From the NCBI RefSeq assembly GCF_012524075.1, contig NZ_JAAZUI010000002.1, positions 62,001-126,000 on the forward strand: a stretch of DNA of 64,000 bases. The letters run 5' to 3'. Under the pieces are notes generated by a model that saw only the letters and a list, made by a program, of their open reading frames with translations, was not told the origin of the DNA and did no database searches. This stretch comes from Lutibacter sp. B1 (GTDB lineage: Bacteria > Bacteroidota > Bacteroidia > Flavobacteriales > Flavobacteriaceae). Positions 47,849 through 58,149 of this stretch are shown here, piece after piece (position 1 is the stretch's first letter; each line of letters starts with the position of its first letter). Both the position numbers and the translations under genes were made by a program.

Positions 47849-47979
47849 CGTCTCTTTCTAACTGATAAATTATAAAACATACATGCCAATAAGTATAGCT
47901 TTATTGTTTCTAAATTCACTACCTTTATACACTTAAACTTTTGTTTATTCAAACACTAAATTTAATGACGTACAAAGCA

Positions 47980-50406
47980 ATGAAATCAATACATTTTTTA
48001 TTTATTTTAATACTACTTAATCACTTCTCATACGCTCAAGAAAGAGAAATAACTGAACTTAAAAACAATTGGAAATTCTTTAAAGGTGAGAATAGTGATG
48101 CTTTTCAAAAAGACTTTAATGATGAAGATTGGCGTAATGTTTCTATTCCACACGATTGGGCTATAGAAGAACCTTTTGTACTTGACGGTAACGGAGATAC
48201 AGGAAAATTACCATGGAAAGGCGAAGGTTGGTACAGAAGAACTCTCGAAATACCACAAAATTACAGTGGCAAAAAATTGTATTTATTGTGCGACGGAATT
48301 ATGGCTTTTCCTAAAATATATATAAATGGCAAACTTGCCGGTGAATGGGATTATGGTTATAATTCTTTTTATGTTGATATTACCGATTTTATCAATTTGA
48401 ATGAAGAAAACACACTTGCTATACATGTTGATACCCGAAAACATGACAGCAGATGGTATCCCGGAGCAGGAATTTACAGAAAAATTCAACTTATTGCTGT
48501 AAATCCTATTCATGTAGATATTTGGGGAACATACATAACTACTCCAATTATTAAACCTAATTATGCGGATGTTAGAATAGCAACAACTTTAAATAATTAT
48601 TCAAACTCTTCTGAAAAAATTAAGATAAAACACACCATTTTAACTGCTGATAATACTATTATTTCTGAAAATGAAGTTGAAGAAAATATCAATATCAATA
48701 GTAATAAAATAGTAGAAACTACCATTACTTTAACCAATCCAAAACGTTGGGATATTGAAACACCAAATTTGTATACTTTGCAAACAACTATTTATAAAGG
48801 CAACAAAATTTTAGATACCTACAAAACTACTTTTGGCGTTCGAGATATTCGTTTTACTGCTGATAATGGTTTTTACTTAAATGATAAAAGAGTTCAGTTA
48901 AAAGGCGTAAATCTGCATCACGATCACGGTCCGTTAGGCGCAGCTTTCAACAAAAGAGCTATGGAAAGACAGCTAGAGATTATGAAAAGTATGGGTTGTA
49001 ACGCAGTTAGAACCAGTCATAATGTGGCTGCACCTGAATTGTTAGAATTATGTGATAAAATGGGAATGTTAGTATTTAACGAAGTTTTTGATAAATACGA
49101 TGCCAAAGCTGACATACTTGAAAACACTGATTTTGAAAGTTTTGCACAAAGAAATATCAAAAATTTTGTGGTAAGAGATAGAAATCATCCATCTATATTT
49201 CTATGGAGTGTTGGTAACGAAATTCCCGATGTACAATGGAATCTTGATAATGGTTTTTACAGACTGCAAACTATGGTTAATTATGTGAAGAAATACGATA
49301 ATACTCGCCCAACAACTTTAGTTTGTGACAGTTATAAAAGTGCCGAACTACGTCATTTTGATTATTACGATGTACATAGCTGGAACTATGGAAGAAGATA
49401 CAGTTTAGCTCGTCAGCTTGAACCAAACAAACCTGTAATTATCAGCGAATCGGCTTCAACATTAAGCACCAGAGGTTTTTACGAGTTTCCATTACCGGAA
49501 GATAAAACCAATTTCACCAAATCTTTACAAGTGAGTTCGTACGATTTAAATGCTCCTGAATGGGCAGAACTGGCCGATGACGATTTTATGTGGCAACAGG
49601 ATGAGTCATATGTTGCAGGTGAATTTATTTGGACAGGTTTTGATTATCTTGGCGAACCAACACCGTATAACAATAAATGGGTTTTAGATAATGGTATGAC
49701 CGACAAAGAAGCTTCTCGAAGTTCTTATTTTGGCGTGGTAGATTTATGTGGAATTCCGAAAGATCGTTATTACTTATACAAAAGTTATTGGAAACCCGAT
49801 GAAACTACTATCCACATTCTTCCTCACTGGAACTGGGATGATAGAGTTGGTAAAAAAACACCGGTTTTTGTATATACTAATGGCGATTGTGCCGAGCTTT
49901 TCCTCAACGGAAAATCACAAGGTAAAAAATGTAAAAACCCGAAGTCTGAAAATTCAACTGAACGCTTCAGATTAATGTGGAATGATGTTATCTATCAACC
50001 CGGAGAATTAAAAGCAGTAGCTTATAAAGAAGGCAAAATATTAGGAGAAAATACAGTAAAAACTGCGGGAGAACCTTATAAATTGATATTAACTCCCGAT
50101 AGAAAAATACTAAAATCTGATGGCGAAGATTTATCTTACATACTTGTTGAAGCGGTTGATAAAAACGGAAATTTATGTCCGTTAGCCAATAATAAAGTTG
50201 AATTCAAAATTAAAGGAAATGCTCAAATTGCAGGTGTTGGAAATGGAAACCCTCAATCTTTTAGTCCTTTTAAATCAAATACAGTAGATTTGTTTTATGG
50301 TAAAGCAATGCTACTTATACAATCCAAAAACAACAAAGAAACTATAACTGTTACAGCATCTTCAAAAAATATGAAAAATGCCGAAACATCTCTAAAAATT
50401 GAATAA
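47980..50406 (+). CDS. GH2 beta-galactosidase-type hydrolase
   Basis: Start placed at 47980 (MKSIHFLFIL), which gives an 808-residue protein with an SPI signal peptide ending FSYAQ; earlier ATG at 47965 and TTG at 47941 are less plausible. GH2 domains follow: jelly roll, Ig-like, TIM barrel with acid/base E414 (WSVGNEIPD) and nucleophile E490 (IISESAS), then DUF4982-like and Ig-like C-terminal domains. Similar architecture to the GH2 at 12614. Two bases separate it from the GH53 gene, so galactose release from beta-1,4-galactan fragments is likely. Confidence 0.9.
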   Translation: MKSIHFLFILILLNHFSYAQEREITELKNNWKFFKGENSDAFQKDFNDEDWRNVSIPHDWAIEEPFVLDGNGDTGKLPWKGEGWYRRTLEIPQNYSGKKLYLLCDGIMAFPKIYINGKLAGEWDYGYNSFYVDITDFINLNEENTLAIHVDTRKHDSRWYPGAGIYRKIQLIAVNPIHVDIWGTYITTPIIKPNYADVRIATTLNNYSNSSEKIKIKHTILTADNTIISENEVEENININSNKIVETTITLTNPKRWDIETPNLYTLQTTIYKGNKILDTYKTTFGVRDIRFTADNGFYLNDKRVQLKGVNLHHDHGPLGAAFNKRAMERQLEIMKSMGCNAVRTSHNVAAPELLELCDKMGMLVFNEVFDKYDAKADILENTDFESFAQRNIKNFVVRDRNHPSIFLWSVGNEIPDVQWNLDNGFYRLQTMVNYVKKYDNTRPTTLVCDSYKSAELRHFDYYDVHSWNYGRRYSLARQLEPNKPVIISESASTLSTRGFYEFPLPEDKTNFTKSLQVSSYDLNAPEWAELADDDFMWQQDESYVAGEFIWTGFDYLGEPTPYNNKWVLDNGMTDKEASRSSYFGVVDLCGIPKDRYYLYKSYWKPDETTIHILPHWNWDDRVGKKTPVFVYTNGDCAELFLNGKSQGKKCKNPKSENSTERFRLMWNDVIYQPGELKAVAYKEGKILGENTVKTAGEPYKLILTPDRKILKSDGEDLSYILVEAVDKNGNLCPLANNKVEFKIKGNAQIAGVGNGNPQSFSPFKSNTVDLFYGKAMLLIQSKNNKETITVTASSKNMKNAETSLKIE

Positions 50407-50408
50407 AC

Positions 50409-51548
50409 ATGATTACAAATCAAATTTCATACAAACAATTCATTTATTTATTAGTATTAATTCCAATTTTTCTTTTCTCTTGTTCGGGTGATAATGATAA
50501 TGACCTTGATTCGGATAAAATAGATGAAGTTGATGAAATTGAAGAAGTTGATGAAACTGATAGTGATTATATAAGTGCTGCCGACTTATCTCTTTTACCA
50601 AAAATTGAAAACACAAATGCTGTTTTCTATAATTTAGAAAATCAAACTGAAGATGTTCTAACTACGTTAAAAAACAATGGTGTAAACACTATAAGACTAA
50701 GAATATGGCACACACCGGAGGACAGTCATTCAAGTTTTGACGAAGTAAAATCATTCTCAGAAAAAATTCACGCTAAAGGTTTAAAAGTATGGATTACAGT
50801 TCATTATTCCGATACTTGGGCAGATCCTGCCAACCAAACACCACCTACAAATTGGCAAGGACTGACCTTTAATGATTTGAAAGATAAAATGTACACATAC
50901 ACTAAAAGTATTGTAACCGAAATACAACCTGATTTTATCCAAATTGGGAATGAAATTAATTCAGGTATGTTATTCCCATTCGGTACTATTGAAAGTAACG
51001 AAACTCAATTTATCAGTTTACTTTCTGAAGGTGTTAAAGCGGTTAGAGATAATTCTACCAAAACAAAAATCATTATTCATTTTGCAGGAATCGAAGGTTC
51101 CGATTGGTTTTATAACAAAGTAAAAAATATTGATTATGATATTATAGGTCTTTCCTACTACCCTATTTGGCATGGTAAAGATTTGAACAATCTTAAATCT
51201 ACTCTAAACAGTTTAAGTACAACATACAATAAAGATATTTTGATTGCTGAAACTGCATATCCTTTTACTTTAGATTGGAATGATTGGACCGATAATATTG
51301 TTGGATTGGAAGAACAATTAATTTTACCTGACTACCCGGCAACTCCTACCGGACAAAAAGATTTTATTGCAAAAATTAAGGAAATTGTAACTCAAACCAA
51401 TGAAGGAATTGGTTTTTGTTATTGGGGCGGTGAGTTAATTGCTTTTGACGGACCGGAATCTAAAAATGGTTCCAGTTGGGAAAATCAAGCCTTATTTGAT
51501 TTTGATAATAAAGCATTACCAGTTCTTTCAGAATTTAAAATTGAATAA
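50409..51548 (+). CDS. GH53 endo-beta-1,4-galactanase (lipoprotein)
   Basis: A 379-residue GH53 enzyme that cuts beta-1,4-galactan, such as pectic side chains. The lipobox LFSC is followed by SGDNDNDLDSD and an acidic linker, suggesting surface exposure. SAADLSLLPKIENTNAVFY, NTIRLRIWHTP and WITVHYSDTWADP are classic family segments; acid/base is E182 (IQIGNEINSGM) and nucleophile E281 (LIAETAYPF). It ends with QALFDFDNKALPVL. Together with the GH2 gene it forms a two-enzyme galactan unit with no transporter. Confidence 0.94.
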   Translation: MITNQISYKQFIYLLVLIPIFLFSCSGDNDNDLDSDKIDEVDEIEEVDETDSDYISAADLSLLPKIENTNAVFYNLENQTEDVLTTLKNNGVNTIRLRIWHTPEDSHSSFDEVKSFSEKIHAKGLKVWITVHYSDTWADPANQTPPTNWQGLTFNDLKDKMYTYTKSIVTEIQPDFIQIGNEINSGMLFPFGTIESNETQFISLLSEGVKAVRDNSTKTKIIIHFAGIEGSDWFYNKVKNIDYDIIGLSYYPIWHGKDLNNLKSTLNSLSTTYNKDILIAETAYPFTLDWNDWTDNIVGLEEQLILPDYPATPTGQKDFIAKIKEIVTQTNEGIGFCYWGGELIAFDGPESKNGSSWENQALFDFDNKALPVLSEFKIE

Positions 51549-51657: not shown

Positions 51658-52461
51658 ATGATTCTAGACGATACTTTAAAAATTTTAAAAAACAGGTACA
51701 GTAAACAACTGGAAAACCTTATTATTAAAAATGTTGTAGTTGGAATTCATCTCACAGCAGTTAAATTAAGTGACAACAGTTTTGGAGTTGCAAGTACGGT
51801 AGATGATACTGAGGTTTTTTGTTTAAAAAAAGATAGAGATTATGGAGATTTTACACCTTCAAAAATAAAAGGTAAAAAAGTTATTGATTTACTTGAATCT
51901 TCAAAACAATCCAATATCATAAATACCTTAAAAATCGCGGTAATAAATGCAATATCCTCTAAAATTTTATCAAATTCAAACTATAAAATACTACAAAATA
52001 CCGATCCGGTAGATTTATTAAATTTGGATGGAGGAAAAACTGTAACCATTGTTGGTGCATTTCAATCATACATCAATAAAATTGCTGCCACCAATAATAA
52101 ACTACACGTTTTAGAATTAAATGAAAATGCCTTGGTTGAAGGTCAAAAACAATATTATGTTCCTGCAATTGAATTTAAAAGAATTATCCCAAAATCTAAT
52201 ATTGTTATTATTACAGGATTAACACTTGTTAATAATACAATTGATGGTTTACTTGAGGTAATTTCACCTGAAACTGAAGTAATTGTTACCGGTCCGTCAA
52301 GTAGTTTAATTCCTGATATTTTATTTGAAAATAAAATTAAATATATTGGAGCTGTACAACTAACCGATTGTGATAAGCTTTTTGAAGTTGTTAGTGAAGG
52401 CGGTAAAGGCTATCATTTATTTAAATATTGTGCCCAAAAAATTTGTATTGTTAATGAGTAA
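51658..52461 (+). CDS. DUF364/DUF4213 protein (putative heavy-metal chelation domain)
   Basis: A 267-residue protein resembling DUF4213-DUF364 proteins: an N-terminal domain of that type (about 1-110, VVVGIHLTAVKLSDN) and a C-terminal Rossmann-like domain (GKTVTIVGAFQSYI, VIITGLTLVNNTIDG and TGPSSSLIPDILF). The family is described as a possible metal-chelating fold and often sits near metal or cofactor transporters. Its stop overlaps the next gene by eight bases. Function is not established. Confidence 0.85.
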   Translation: MILDDTLKILKNRYSKQLENLIIKNVVVGIHLTAVKLSDNSFGVASTVDDTEVFCLKKDRDYGDFTPSKIKGKKVIDLLESSKQSNIINTLKIAVINAISSKILSNSNYKILQNTDPVDLLNLDGGKTVTIVGAFQSYINKIAATNNKLHVLELNENALVEGQKQYYVPAIEFKRIIPKSNIVIITGLTLVNNTIDGLLEVISPETEVIVTGPSSSLIPDILFENKIKYIGAVQLTDCDKLFEVVSEGGKGYHLFKYCAQKICIVNE

Positions 52462-54169
52462 AAATACAAAAGTTTTAGACGAGAAATGGATTAAAGCTTC
52501 TATTATCGGTACTACTTGGGCTGCTTCAGAAATTGTACTTGGAAGTTTTTTACACAATTTAAAAGTTCCCTTTAGCGGTAATGCTTTAACAGCTATTGGA
52601 ATTATTATTCTAATCTCAGCTAGTTATATTTGGAAAGAAAAAGGACTGTTTTGGAGAGCCGGATTAATATGTGCTATTATGAAAACAATGTCTCCAAGTG
52701 CGGTTATATTTGGACCAATGATAGCTATTTTTAGTCAATCATTATTACTTGAAGGCAGTGTACGTATTTTTGGAAAAACAATTATTGGCTATGCAATAGG
52801 TTCAATGTTGGCAATGTCTTGGAATTTGTTTCAAAAAATTATAAACTTCATTATTTTTTATGGAATGAACATTGTTGAAGTTTATGAAAGTCTGTTACAA
52901 ATGGCTCAAAAACAACTTTATATCCAATTTAACATTGTTTGGCTACCAATTATCATTTTATTAGTTATCTATGCAATTTTAGGTTTGTTTTCAGCTTATA
53001 TAGGCATTAAAGTGGGTAGAAAAATAAAAAATGAACCTGTAAAAGTTAAATCGATACACAATCCTTCAAACTTTATTCAAAAACAAAGCAAAGCCAATAA
53101 AAATTTTAAGCATTCTTTAGTTTGGCTTTTTATAGATATTCTATTAATTATCAGCTCTCTATATTTATTATCAAAAACACATTGGCTTGTTTGGAGTAGT
53201 ATTATTATTTTAGTTGTAAGTATTTGGGCTTTACGCTATAAAAGAGCTCTAAAACAATTGTTAAAACCAAAATTTTGGGTGTTTTTTGTTTTAATAACTA
53301 TGCTTACAGCCTATGTTTTCACCAAAATTCAAGGCCAAAGCATAGAAGAAGCACTTTTAACTGGGCTTCAAATGAATTTTAGAGCCATTGTAATTATTAT
53401 TGGTTTTTCTGTTTTAGGAACCGAATTATACAATCCTAAAATTCAAGCTTTTTTCTTAAAGACTTCTTTTAAACAATTACCGCTTGTACTTGAACTTTCT
53501 TTTGAAAGTCTACCTTTAATGATTGCGAGTATTCCCAACTTTAAATCCATCGTTAAAAATCCTATTTCGATAATTTCTGAAGTTATTTCTCAGGCTGAAT
53601 TCAGATTAGATGAAATAAAAAAGAAACTTAATTTTAAGCAGCAACTATTTATTATTACAGGCTCCATTGAAGAAGGAAAAACAACAGCTATAAAAAATAG
53701 TATTGAAGAATTACAACAACAAAACATAACAATTGGCGGTTTTTATTCTCCCAGAATAATAGAAAATAATATTACAATTGGTTATGATATTGTTGCTGTA
53801 CAAACCCTTGAAAAAGAACCATTTTTAAGAATTTCAACCAATAAAAGCCTCCAAAATATTGGTAAATACAGCATCTTAGAAAAAGGATTACAAAAAGGAA
53901 TTGACGCTTTAAAACCAACAAACAACCTTAACAATAAAATTGTTGTAATTGATGAAGTTGGAAGATTAGAATTAAACAATAAAGGCTGGGCAAAAAGTAT
54001 CCAAGAATTAGTAAATACATCAAACAATCACATTTTAATAACCGTTAGAGATCATTTTCTTGAAAAAGTTCTTGAAAAATGGAATTTTAAAAATCACTAT
54101 GTATTTGATGTTTCAAAAAACGATTACAAAACTATTAGTAATACTATTTTAGAAAAATTAGAAACCTAA
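52454..54169 (+). CDS. Membrane protein fused to THEP1-like NTPase (ECF-transporter-like)
   Basis: Start taken at 52454 (MSKNTKVLDEKW), overlapping the DUF364 gene by eight bases; 571 residues. Residues ~10-195 hold several membrane segments reminiscent of an ECF substrate-binding (CbiM-like) subunit (SPSAVIFGPMIAIF), and ~215-390 a second membrane block reminiscent of an EcfT/CbiQ coupling subunit. Residues ~398-571 are a P-loop NTPase of the THEP1 kind: Walker A GSIEEGKTT at 403-411 and Walker B VVIDEVGRLE with D500/E501. All three parts in one chain is unusual. Substrate, perhaps a metal or cofactor precursor, is inferred only from the DUF364 partner. Confidence 0.8.
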   Translation: MSKNTKVLDEKWIKASIIGTTWAASEIVLGSFLHNLKVPFSGNALTAIGIIILISASYIWKEKGLFWRAGLICAIMKTMSPSAVIFGPMIAIFSQSLLLEGSVRIFGKTIIGYAIGSMLAMSWNLFQKIINFIIFYGMNIVEVYESLLQMAQKQLYIQFNIVWLPIIILLVIYAILGLFSAYIGIKVGRKIKNEPVKVKSIHNPSNFIQKQSKANKNFKHSLVWLFIDILLIISSLYLLSKTHWLVWSSIIILVVSIWALRYKRALKQLLKPKFWVFFVLITMLTAYVFTKIQGQSIEEALLTGLQMNFRAIVIIIGFSVLGTELYNPKIQAFFLKTSFKQLPLVLELSFESLPLMIASIPNFKSIVKNPISIISEVISQAEFRLDEIKKKLNFKQQLFIITGSIEEGKTTAIKNSIEELQQQNITIGGFYSPRIIENNITIGYDIVAVQTLEKEPFLRISTNKSLQNIGKYSILEKGLQKGIDALKPTNNLNNKIVVIDEVGRLELNNKGWAKSIQELVNTSNNHILITVRDHFLEKVLEKWNFKNHYVFDVSKNDYKTISNTILEKLET

Positions 54170-54937
54170 TTAAACTTCAAGCACCAATTCGTCATAAGCT
54201 AAAAACACATTTTCAGGCAAAGTTTTTTCAACTTCTGCATGAAAACCTAAATGATGGCTTATGTGTGTTAAATACGCTTTTTTAGGTTTTAATTCAGCTA
54301 TTAAAGCTAATGCTTCCTCTAAATTCAAATGCGAATGATGAGATTTATGACGGATGGCATTTAACACCAATACATCTATATTTTGTAATTTCTTTTTACC
54401 GGAATCAGGAATTGTTTTTACATCTGTTAAATACGCAAAATCTTTAAATCGATATCCTAAAATTGGTAAATTTCCATGCATCACTTCTATTGGAATCACT
54501 TCTAAATTTCCTAATACAAATGGAGTTTCTGAGATTTCATTTTCCTTAATACTTGGCGCACCGGGATATTTATCAACTTCATTAAAAATATAATCAAATC
54601 TTTTTTCTAAATTAACTAAAACTCTTCGCTGTGCATAAATAGGAACTTCTCCTAATTGAAAACTAAAAGGGCGTATATCATCCAAACCGGCAATATGATC
54701 AGAATGTTCGTGAGTAAATAATACCCCATCTATTTTTCTTACATCTGCTCTTAACATTTGATATCTAAAATCCGGACCGCAATCTACAACATAAGCATAC
54801 TTATCCCATTCAACCAAAATGGAAACTCTTAAACGCTTATCTCTTTTATCTTTTGATAAACATACCGGATGTGAGCAATTTATAACTGGTATTCCTTGTG
54901 ATGTTCCTGTTCCTAAAAAAGTAATTTTCAAATTCAA
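54170..54937 (-). CDS. PhnP-like metallo-beta-lactamase-fold hydrolase
   Basis: A 255-residue MBL-fold enzyme. The metal motif is THEHSDHIAGLDDIRPF (H76, H78, D80, H81), and an N-terminal C21/C26 pair (CSHPVC) matches the extra zinc site of PhnP-type proteins. PhnP is a cyclic ribose phosphodiesterase, but no C-P lyase genes are nearby and Flavobacteriaceae carry such homologues widely, so the real substrate is uncertain. Its stop directly abuts the stop of the convergent fusion gene with no room for a terminator. Confidence 0.88.
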   Translation of the reverse strand: MNLKITFLGTGTSQGIPVINCSHPVCLSKDKRDKRLRVSILVEWDKYAYVVDCGPDFRYQMLRADVRKIDGVLFTHEHSDHIAGLDDIRPFSFQLGEVPIYAQRRVLVNLEKRFDYIFNEVDKYPGAPSIKENEISETPFVLGNLEVIPIEVMHGNLPILGYRFKDFAYLTDVKTIPDSGKKKLQNIDVLVLNAIRHKSHHSHLNLEEALALIAELKPKKAYLTHISHHLGFHAEVEKTLPENVFLAYDELVLEV

Positions 54938-55110
54938 TAAAATTTAAAAAAACAGTTTTTTATACTGTTAATTGTAATAATTATTACATAATTAATAAAA
55001 TAAATTGAAATAGCTTATCAATATTAAAAATAATGATTTTTATCAACCTTTAAAGTTAATTATTTCTTTATTTTTACCGTACAACAGTTAAGTAATTTAG
55101 TATATTAAAA

Positions 55111-55317
55111 ATGAACAATATTAAATCAACCTCTAAATACTTTTTAAACTTTATTTATTTATTCTTAATTGCCTTGATTGTTCATAAAACTAAAAATATA
55201 TCTATCTATGAAACTAGCTTAACAGCTGGTTTTCTTATTTTTCTGAATAACGAAAAAATCATTCAAATAATTCAATCTGAATTATACATATTCAAAATTA
55301 CACACAATAAAAAATAA
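55111..55317 (+). CDS. Small hydrophobic protein, 68 residues
   Basis: A 207-base frame five bases upstream of the transhydrogenase operon. The product has two hydrophobic stretches (about residues 11-24 and 36-45) and a basic tail, with no recognised family. Coding status rests on its position and length; in AT-rich DNA such a frame could be accidental. If real, it may be a small membrane protein cotranscribed with pntAA. Confidence 0.45.
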   Translation: MNNIKSTSKYFLNFIYLFLIALIVHKTKNISIYETSLTAGFLIFLNNEKIIQIIQSELYIFKITHNKK

Positions 55318-55322
55318 TAAAT

Positions 55323-56438
55323 ATGAAAATAGGCATATTAAAAGAATCTAAAAAAGGTGAAAGACGTGTTTCTATTTCGCCTAATATTGCCAAACAACTA
55401 ATTGAAAAAGGCTTTGAAATTTTTGTTGAAGAAGATGCCGGAGTAGCTTCGTCTTTTAAAAATTCTGACTATACAAAAGTAGGCGCCGTAGTTGATATTC
55501 GAGGAGTTGTTTTTAAGGAATCTAATATTCTTATTAAAATTAATCCTTTTGATGAAGATGATTTAAAATTAGTGGACGAAAGCCATATTTTAATGAGTCA
55601 GTTATTTCATAAATCTCATCCCGAGCTTATTAAAGCAATTGCCGAAAAAGGTGCTTCTGCATTTTCTATGGATGCTATGCCTCGTATTTCAAGAGCTCAG
55701 GATATGGATGTTTTAAGCTCACAAAGTAATTTGGCAGGTTACAAAGCGGTAATTTTAGGTGCTTATGAAATGACAAAAATTTTCCCTTTAATGATGACTG
55801 CTGCAGGTACAATTACTCCTTCAAGAGTTTTAATATATGGAGTTGGTGTTGCAGGTTTACAAGCAATAGCCACCGCAAAACGTTTAGGTGCTGTTGTTGA
55901 AGCTACTGATATTCGTTTAGAAACTAAAGAACAAACAGAATCTTTAGGTGCTAAATTTATTACAGTTGATAATACAGGCGAAGCAAAGGCTGAAGGCGGT
56001 TATGCTAAAGAAGCCTCCGAAGATTACGCGCGTAGACAAAAAGAAGCCGTAAACAAATCACTATTCCAAGCAGATTTAGTTATCACAACCGCTATGGTTC
56101 CGGGTAGAAAATCTCCTGTTTTAATTACAGAAGAACAAGTTAAACAAATGAAGAATGGAGCAGTAATAGTTGATTTGGCAGCAGCTCAAGGCGGTAACTG
56201 TGAGCTAAGTAAGTTAAACCAAAATATTATTAAATACGGAGTTAAAATTATTGGTACAACCATAGCGCCTGAAAGTGTTTCAACAAATGCAAGCGATTTA
56301 TACGCTAAAAATATGTTCAATTTTATAATGCATTTAACTGAAAATAATGAGTTTAAATGGGATTTAGAAGAAGAGATTACTGATGAAACATTAATTGTAC
56401 AAAACGGAAAAATTAGAAAAAACGGAAAAACTGAATAA
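55323..56438 (+). CDS. pntAA: NAD(P) transhydrogenase alpha subunit, domain I
   Basis: A 371-residue NAD(H)-binding subunit of proton-translocating transhydrogenase, which transfers hydride from NADH to NADP+ using the proton gradient. It starts with MKIGILKESKKGERRVSISP, has the conserved R-Q-D region (SRAQDMDVLSSQSNLAGY, abbreviated AQDMDVLSSQ), a Rossmann VLIYGVGVAGLQAIATA and TAMVPGRKSPVL. The membrane part is a separate gene, as usual in this phylum. Two bases lie before pntAB. Confidence 0.95.
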   Translation: MKIGILKESKKGERRVSISPNIAKQLIEKGFEIFVEEDAGVASSFKNSDYTKVGAVVDIRGVVFKESNILIKINPFDEDDLKLVDESHILMSQLFHKSHPELIKAIAEKGASAFSMDAMPRISRAQDMDVLSSQSNLAGYKAVILGAYEMTKIFPLMMTAAGTITPSRVLIYGVGVAGLQAIATAKRLGAVVEATDIRLETKEQTESLGAKFITVDNTGEAKAEGGYAKEASEDYARRQKEAVNKSLFQADLVITTAMVPGRKSPVLITEEQVKQMKNGAVIVDLAAAQGGNCELSKLNQNIIKYGVKIIGTTIAPESVSTNASDLYAKNMFNFIMHLTENNEFKWDLEEEITDETLIVQNGKIRKNGKTE

Positions 56439-56440
56439 AT

Positions 56441-56749
56441 ATGACTGATTTTATTGAATTTATAAAAAATGACATCCAATTAATATACATTCTAATACTT
56501 GCTATATTTATTGGATTAGAGTTAATTAAAAACGTACCAACAGTATTACACACACCTCTAATGTCTGGAGCAAACGCTTTAAGTGGAGTTGTGATTGTTG
56601 GAGCAATTTTAGTTATGCTACAATCAAACCCTAATGATTATTTATCATTAACATTAGGTTTTATAGCTGTAGTACTTGGAATAATAAATGTAGTTGGTGG
56701 GTATGCCGTAACCGACAGAATGTTACAAATGTTTAAAAAGAAAAAATAA
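56441..56749 (+). CDS. pntAB: NAD(P) transhydrogenase alpha subunit, membrane part
   Basis: A 102-residue inner-membrane subunit with three hydrophobic helices and the conserved loop VPTVLHTPLMSGANALSG, plus NVVGGYAVTDRMLQMFKKK at the end. It forms part of the proton channel together with PntB. The stop overlaps the pntB start by one base (TAATG). Confidence 0.95.
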   Translation: MTDFIEFIKNDIQLIYILILAIFIGLELIKNVPTVLHTPLMSGANALSGVVIVGAILVMLQSNPNDYLSLTLGFIAVVLGIINVVGGYAVTDRMLQMFKKKK

Positions 56750-58149
56750 TGAGTATAACTTTAAGTATTATCTATTTGATCTCAACCGTAGCTTTTGTTA
56801 TCGGTTTAAAATTACTTGGACATCCAGAAACAGCTAAAAAAGGTAATTTCATTTCGGCATTAGGTATGGCAATTGCTATTTTAGGTACTATTTTCTTAGC
56901 TGAAAAAGAGGTTCCAACAATTATTTATTCACTTATTGGTACTGCAATTGTAATTGGAGGAATTATTGGTTATATAATTGCCATTAAAGTTGAAATGACA
57001 AAAATGCCTGAATTGGTATCTCTTTTTAACGGATTTGGAGGAGCAAGTGCTTTGCTTATTGGTTTAATTGAATTTAGTAAAAATGTAGGAGTAGAAGAAT
57101 CATTAAAAGCTCCTTCATCAATATTAGTAACAATTTTAGCAGCTATTATAATTGGTAGTATCACATTTACAGGAAGTTTAGTGGCTTGGGCTAAATTAAA
57201 TGGCTCTATGAAAGATATAAGACTCCCTAAATACAATCTTATAAATAATATCATGTTCTTAGCACTTATTGCTTTTGGAACATACATTGTATTAATGGAT
57301 ACTGATAGTTTGTTTTTAATTTATATTTTACTTTTAGCCGCATTAGTTTATGGCTTTTTATTTGTAGTTCCAATTGGTGGAGCGGATATGCCTGTGGTAA
57401 TTTCACTTTTAAACTCATTAACAGGTATTGCTGCCGCTATTACAGGTGTACTATACAATAACATGGTTATGCTTGTAGGTGGTATTTTAGTGGGATCTGC
57501 CGGATTAATTTTAACTTTTGCAATGTGTAAAGCCATGAACCGCTCCTTATCTAATGTAATATTTGGTGCTTTTGGTGGTGCTGAAGTTGCTGGTACTACA
57601 GGAGGAAAGATTGGAGGTAATATCAAAAAAACAAGTGCCAGTGATGCTGCTGTAATGATGAATTATTCAAGTAATGTAGTAATTGTACCGGGATACGGTT
57701 TAGCTGTAGCACAAGCTCAACATGTTATTCATGAATTAGAAGAATTACTTACAAAAAAAGGTGTGAATGTAAAATATGCTATTCATCCTGTTGCTGGAAG
57801 AATGCCTGGTCACATGAATGTTTTATTGGCTGAAAGTAATGTAGATTATAGCAAACTAGTTGAAATGGACGATATCAATCCTCATTTTCCAAATACCGAT
57901 GTTGTATTGGTTGTTGGTGCTAATGATGTTGTTAACCCTGCAGCTCATAACGACCCTTCAAGCCCAATTTATGGTATGCCAATTTTAGATGTAGAAAATG
58001 CCAAACATATTATTGTAAACAAACGAAGTATGAAACCTGGTTATGCAGGTATTGAAAACGAATTATTCTATAATCAAAAAACTTCAATGCTTTTTGGTGA
58101 CGCCAAAGCTGCTTTAACAGATTTAGTTAATGAGCTAAAAAATATGTAA
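56749..58149 (+). CDS. pntB: NAD(P) transhydrogenase beta subunit
   Basis: A 466-residue subunit with about nine membrane helices (1-265) followed by the NADP(H)-binding domain (about 290-466; VIVPGYGLAVAQAQHVIHEL, VLVVGANDVVNPAAH and IYGMPILDVENA). KMPELVSLFNGFGGASALL is the conserved helix segment. All three pnt genes are tightly packed and end at a strong terminator, so they form one operon. The enzyme supplies NADPH, which also supports the peroxide defences. Confidence 0.95.
   Translation: MSITLSIIYLISTVAFVIGLKLLGHPETAKKGNFISALGMAIAILGTIFLAEKEVPTIIYSLIGTAIVIGGIIGYIIAIKVEMTKMPELVSLFNGFGGASALLIGLIEFSKNVGVEESLKAPSSILVTILAAIIIGSITFTGSLVAWAKLNGSMKDIRLPKYNLINNIMFLALIAFGTYIVLMDTDSLFLIYILLLAALVYGFLFVVPIGGADMPVVISLLNSLTGIAAAITGVLYNNMVMLVGGILVGSAGLILTFAMCKAMNRSLSNVIFGAFGGAEVAGTTGGKIGGNIKKTSASDAAVMMNYSSNVVIVPGYGLAVAQAQHVIHELEELLTKKGVNVKYAIHPVAGRMPGHMNVLLAESNVDYSKLVEMDDINPHFPNTDVVLVVGANDVVNPAAHNDPSSPIYGMPILDVENAKHIIVNKRSMKPGYAGIENELFYNQKTSMLFGDAKAALTDLVNELKNM

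Follow-up and report, generated by a model that had tools for sequence, protein, structure and literature searches.

What would a membrane protein of a flavobacterium do with a THEP1-like NTPase at the end of its own chain and a DUF364 protein encoded just upstream, and what, if anything, would it carry across the membrane? The question is raised by a two-gene locus in the window analyzed here, a 64,000-nucleotide stretch of the genome of Lutibacter sp. B1 (3.42 Mb, 194 contigs, 99.94% complete). We know of no function for THEP1. An earlier note on this DNA had read the locus as a possible one-piece metal importer of the ECF kind; this is not the best reading, since all 68 aligned family members lack the EcfT coupling motif and since the relatives lead to the molybdenum cofactor (Moco) and not to a free metal. 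Here, we propose, at a probability of about 0.5, that the 571-residue protein supplies both the membrane part and the NTPase of a Moco uptake system that serves salvage beside de novo synthesis.

Results

The two genes (Table 1) have 8 nt in common (overlap ATGAGTAA), in keeping with the tight coupling claimed for them earlier. The DUF364 partner was also correctly recognized, as both domains score above cut-off in the first open reading frame (PF04016 DUF364, E 2.4e-39, 134.7 bits; PF13938 DUF4213, E 1.6e-12, 48 bits). The 571-aa gene was not found in 37 other genomes of the host's genus and was therefore probably acquired. Upstream of the pair (window 47941-51548), GH2 and GH53 enzymes form a galactan-type cluster with no relation to the finding; downstream (54170-58149), a metallo-beta-lactamase-fold protein is followed by AlaDh/PNT-type transhydrogenase subunits, the beta part being named by inspection.

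Table 1. Coordinates of the two genes and of the three parts of the longer protein, in window positions.
Feature	Position	Strand	Basis
DUF4213/DUF364 protein, 267 aa	51658..52461	+	PF04016 + PF13938; nearest solved structures 3npg, 3l5o
Membrane-NTPase fusion, 571 residues from its ATG	52454..54169	+	ORF, Pfam, family alignment
Residues 1-215, first membrane part	52454..53098	+	homologous, by profile comparison, to stand-alone membrane proteins of split systems
Residues 216-395, second membrane part, possible EcfT/CbiQ-like stretch (moderate support)	53099..53638	+	hhalign
Residues 396-571, THEP1-like NTPase	53639..54166	+	PF03266 5.4e-25; PDB 1ye8, 2i3b

The membrane part and a THEP1-like NTPase are indeed joined in one chain: residues 399-566 match PF03266 NTPase_1 (THEP1) at E 5.4e-25 (88.6 bits against a cut-off of 23.9), and the same part finds PDB entries 2i3b and 1ye8. 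The membrane part gave no Pfam match, every match at E<=1 beginning at residue 375 or later, and hydropathy means show eight membrane-like windows, all within residues 15-318. Relatives of the protein are encoded at 72 loci of other Bacteroidota genomes; the complete ORFs of at least 545 aa (66 of the 72 loci, with L002 and the window protein added) gave a 68-row alignment with 40 invariant columns. PF03266 matches all 68 members, with Walker A and B present and K409, D500 and E501 invariant. R310 and P370 of the second membrane part are likewise invariant, as are H34, K77, S80 and P81 of the first; E26 is found in 67 of 68 rows, the remaining row having a gap. In one relative an apparent frameshift interrupts the gene (L068:5992-7694), and another stops before the NTPase (L071:5980-7167).

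In the family tree the window protein pairs with a protein of Flavobacteriaceae (L007; support 100/99). DUF364 lies directly upstream (<=25 nt or overlapping) at 19 of the 72 loci; some loci begin too close to a contig end to show the upstream gene. Six changes of the DUF364-neighbor label are needed to fit the tree, and the coupling has hence been gained or lost several times.

The ECF claim was examined part by part. CbiQ/EcfT is found at E<=1e-10 in 0 of 60 Bacteroidia genomes, and the comparison ECF sequences were therefore taken from plasmid records. By hhalign, the second membrane part matches 11 EcfT/CbiQ proteins at E 3.8e-4 (probability 36%), against 0.53 for the reversed control and 0.039 for the best of 26 unrelated membrane groups, a control that is not like for like as 20 of the 26 groups are single sequences; single T proteins gave 0.011-0.57. 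The EcfT/CbiQ resemblance claimed earlier thus retains moderate support, and this stretch is possibly EcfT-like; the Ala/Ser-Arg-Gly coupling motif, on the other hand, occurs in 0 of 68 members and in 10 of the 11 EcfT/CbiQ controls. The proposed CbiM-like S part had to be dropped, since the membrane part compares with CbiM at 0.095, a poorer value than the 0.018 reached by an unrelated control, and comparison with CbiM, BioY and two other S proteins gave no support for an S component. With the 68-row alignment as profile, a search of the PDB gave 55 chains at E<=10, none of them an EcfT, CbiQ or S component. The protein shares with ECF transporters (EcfT/CbiQ, CbiM, BioY) a P-loop NTPase partner, perhaps the stretch within residues 216-395 and, as proposed here, a vitamin- or cofactor-sized cargo; it differs in the missing Arg-Gly motif, in an S part that is not recognizable and in its NTPase, which is THEP1-type (PF03266, 5.4e-25) rather than an ABC-type EcfA ATPase. 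By these sequence comparisons, membership of the 571-aa protein in the ECF group is not supported.

A search of 295 Bacteroidia genomes with the 68-row profile brought to light split systems, in which a membrane protein of ~330 aa stands with a THEP1-like NTPase of ~160 aa and FdhD after it, or in which the NTPase is fused to a MobA-like domain (~360 aa) and then followed by FdhD. A profile built from 13 such membrane proteins finds the gene in 14 of the 294 genomes that remain when the window's own is set aside, and the window's gene itself at 4.5e-16; global hhalign of the single-chain family against the 13 proteins gave a probability of 99.1 and E 9.9e-18. Judged by these profile matches, the membrane part is homologous between the single-chain and the split form, and E26, H34, K77, S80 and P81 are conserved in both alike.

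In neighborhoods of up to 19 kb around the 14 split genes, a THEP1-like gene adjoins the membrane gene in 12, a MobA-like domain is fused (8, called by motif, four of them confirmed by profile) or adjacent (2) to the THEP1-like gene in 10, and FdhD lies within the fetched neighborhood in 7. FdhD passes the TIGR00129 cut-off; the MobA-like domains have MobA as their best NCBIfam models, below the curated cut-offs, and score above cut-off for PF12804. The P-loop domain fused to MobA is THEP1-like (NF010248/PF03266 matches), and PF03266 is passed by three of six scanned split relatives and just missed by the other three. An enzyme with PF00384 and PF01568 is encoded in three stretches (G210, G216, G227), with DUF7009 beside it in the profile-checked ones, and a Moco-binding MOSC protein lies directly upstream of the split system in two genomes (G193, G347). 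DUF7009 (122 aa) recurs by FdhD or a molybdoenzyme (L109:15066-15434, L116:5452-5820 and piece L196 of G153) and is a candidate maturation protein. In a search for riboswitches, neither the window nor the 7 split-type stretches scanned (of 14) gave an Rfam match.

Loss of cofactor biosynthesis accompanies the split membrane gene. MoaC is present in 132 of the 295 genomes but in 1 of the 14 with this gene (Fisher 0.004), and by profiles the other 13 gave no match for MoaC, MoeA or MoaA; twelve of the 13 are 94-100% complete and one (G347) 71%. Seven of them belong to one family (f26) and are hence not independent, the rest coming from six other families; f26, f17, f42, f53 and f68 all have other members with MoaC and without the membrane gene. 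In the class sample MoaC often sits in open frames of ~300 aa, so it is often fused to something.

The enzymes that use the cofactor have been kept. The bis-MGD-enzyme domain PF01568, scored at E<=1e-8, occurs in 120 of the 295 genomes; with the window's own genome left out, 108 have enzyme and MoaC, 11 the enzyme only and 23 MoaC only, and 7 of the 11 enzyme-only genomes have the membrane gene. Among MoaC-less genomes, PF01568 is present in 7 of 13 with the membrane gene versus 4 of 150 without it (Fisher 9.3e-7). Three of these four exceptions (G132, G134, G265) do have MoaA, so that probably only G138 is a true orphan without the membrane gene. Enzyme genes that fall below the PF01568 cut lie beside the membrane gene in G210 and G227, bringing the count to 9 of 13; in the four others (G109, G161, G254, G284) no molybdoenzyme has been found so far. 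The combination that defines cofactor salvage, a user enzyme and an uptake candidate with no biosynthesis, is therefore seen for the split form only (9/13); for the window's single chain the pathway is present.

One MoaC-less split-type genome, G153, was read almost whole (2,524,243 bases, 31 contigs). Searched with E. coli proteins, it gave no match at 0.01 for MoaA, B, C, D, E, MoeA, Mog, MobB, ModA or ModB, a search that could miss small divergent proteins, although MoaC, MoaA and MoeA were also missed by the profiles. A MobA-like protein, FdhD (50%) and DUF7009 are present, as is a molybdoenzyme 67-69% identical to that of G216; a MoeB match at 28% is likely another ThiF-type protein, and ModC as query gave general ABC matches only.

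The single-chain genomes present a different picture. We examined 53 (those of 50 of the 72 loci, with G000, G061 and G076): MoaC is found in 37, MoeA in 40 and MoaA in 31, and all three are absent from 11. A MoaA miss is weak evidence, because PF06463 misses it in 6 of the 37 MoaC-positive genomes. A ModB-type permease (E<=1e-37) is present in 31 of 53, three of them, the window's own genome included, above the ModB cut-off; the own genome also has MoaA, MoaC and MoeA. Since MoaC is present in 37 of 53, most single-chain genomes do not need cofactor import, which counts against it. Nitrogenase was set aside as the molybdenum user of the MoaC-less genomes (NifD in 1 of 53). These genomes are in part MAGs with no completeness given, in which the absence of MoaC may be a bin gap case by case; gaps are less likely where sisters all lack it (L016/L017; L021/L027/L029/L032). 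MoaC-less genomes are more frequent at DUF364-coupled loci (9 of 17) than at others (6 of 33; Fisher 0.02).

A molybdenum-related neighbor is in view at 16 of 74 single-chain loci, many flanks being short, and none was found at the other 58 with the queries used. These neighbors comprise aldehyde oxidoreductase, XDH, the DMSO-reductase family, MobA and ModE-like proteins (one ModE-like profile match, 83.4 against 98.5 bits; others by BLAST clustering), and occur also at the DUF364-coupled L015, L022 and L028. L015 has DUF364, an aldehyde oxidoreductase at a distance of four genes and none of MoaC, MoaA and MoeA, absences that are uncertain in a bin of 2.3 Mb whose completeness is not given. 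A TonB receptor is encoded at six loci. At L021, L027 and L032 a FeoB gene faces the DUF364 and single-chain genes, with FeoA and an ArsR-like regulator at some of them (names by inspection).

Discussion

The split membrane gene is present where synthesis of the cofactor has been lost while its users, MobA and FdhD have been kept, and for this reason we take it to be the probable way in for the cofactor. MobA acts on Mo-molybdopterin, so the cargo would be Mo-molybdopterin or something readily turned into it; since there is no MoeA, the metal would have to come along with it. The ligand may be Mo-molybdopterin, the corresponding tungsten compound or a closely related pterin. Conserved polar residues of the first membrane part (E26, H34, K77 and S80) would hold the anionic pterin, the EcfT-like second part would link the first to the THEP1-like NTPase, and hydrolysis of ATP or GTP would release the ligand inside, where DUF364 may receive or process it. 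In pathway-less genomes with MobA and FdhD, imported Mo-molybdopterin would be converted to bis-MGD for the molybdoenzyme; the single-chain form of the window would be a salvage version in a cell that has kept its biosynthetic genes. Transport and the exact ligand are what we infer from this pattern, and the single-chain form presumably shares the ligand of the split form.

The role of the NTPase is less clear. In the MoaC-positive genome G242 a THEP1-like NTPase, a MobA-like protein and FdhD stand in a row with no membrane gene (L102:1315-3244), which suggests that THEP1 works with MobA on its own, and hence that the NTPase may be MobA's partner and not a motor. Motor and hand-off roles seem to us about equally likely; the motor role is favored where the NTPase is fused to the EcfT-like part, as in the window's family.

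Among other readings, an importer of molybdate or tungstate oxyanion or of a metal chelate, extra to ModABC or WtpABC, is unlikely. It would suit the molybdenum-enzyme and ModE-like neighbors of the single-chain loci, and the conserved H, K and S might serve to hold an oxyanion. The DUF364 structure paper reports Mo, W, V and Fe transport in the genomic surroundings of these proteins (PMC2954201), and a 2018 survey lists 278 bacteria, among 3683 that use Mo, for which there is no known Mo transporter (PMC6147048). However, 31 of 53 single-chain genomes already have a ModB-type permease, and the 13 of 14 split-type genomes without MoeA, MoaA and MoaC could not make cofactor from molybdate by known enzymes. 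A plain molybdate importer in place of ModABC is rejected on the same two grounds, the ModB-type matches being strong. What the locus would share with ModABC, WtpABC and TupABC is molybdenum supply; unlike them it has no ABC subunits or binding protein, as neither protein matched a permease, ATPase or binding protein of these systems, and it coexists with the ModB-type permease.

Rather improbable is a membrane-anchored complex that handles the cofactor with no transport, the THEP1-like NTPase acting for MobA as MobB does and the cofactor arriving otherwise. Such a complex would account for the G242 cluster and for the 10 of 14 stretches in which THEP1 and MobA are fused or neighbors, and the MobB model matches weakly in 36 of 68 single-chain members. 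The split systems do recall MobA-MobB fusions in having a P-loop protein fused to MobA (8/14), yet their P-loop domain is THEP1-like and a membrane protein adjoins. Against such a complex, the loss of biosynthesis tracks the membrane gene and not the NTPase (G242 has NTPase and MoaC), a hand-off needs no multi-helix membrane protein, and no other transporter-like gene repeatedly adjoins in the 14 stretches.

The least probable of these alternatives is that the single-chain substrate differs from that of the split form, for example iron, a different pterin or a siderophore-like chelate that DUF364 would handle. The excess of MoaC-less genomes at DUF364-coupled loci, the FeoB genes at three of these and the identity of only ~35% of residues between single-chain and split forms lean that way; the conserved polar residues are nevertheless the same in the homologous membrane part, and molybdenum enzymes, MobA and ModE-like proteins adjoin single-chain loci, the three DUF364-coupled ones included.

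Uptake of Moco thus remains our preferred reading, and it departs from known systems in several respects. Compared with THEP1 (PF03266; 1ye8, 2i3b), the NTPase has the same Walker A lysine and DExGxLEL signature and is distinguished by its fusion to a membrane protein here and to MobA-like domains in the split relatives. The DUF364 protein has both domains of its relatives (3l5o, 3npg) and related chains, but is coupled to a single-chain membrane-NTPase, not to ABC subunits. The structure paper on DUF364 proposed flavin- or pterin-like ligands and noted Mo/W transport neighbors, and we count both in favor of Moco import (PMC2954201). The general view is that every cell makes its own Moco; in C. 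elegans uptake has been shown and the membrane crossing is open even there (PMC9793310). Moco uptake reactions were termed unrealistic in an E. coli modelling paper (PMC3423039), while a possible part in taking up cobalamin or molybdopterin is suggested for some outer-membrane proteins of type 11 systems (PMC12282271; see also PMC11879881). We found no Moco importer described in the open-licence literature, subscription papers and preprints being outside its scope, and nothing relating THEP1 to molybdenum, judged by title.

The protein may be the first importer of intact Moco, ECF-like, free of ABC subunits and driven by a THEP1 motor, split (membrane protein, THEP1-MobA, FdhD) in auxotrophs, and in salvagers such as the window's organism fused and coupled to a DUF364 protein that would handle the pterin or cofactor, a fuller statement that we offer tentatively, at a little under even odds. 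In the 2018 survey, 305 bacteria have Moco-dependent enzymes and no complete Moco pathway, explained there by missing enzymes, pseudogenes or Mo-independent forms (PMC6147048). If our proposal is true, it would explain how bacteria with such "orphan" molybdoenzymes obtain the cofactor, and would add an importer with an EcfT-like part yet no ABC ATPase. Moco would then be a shared, traded vitamin in microbial communities, and a dedicated uptake gene would give a handle on Moco delivery.
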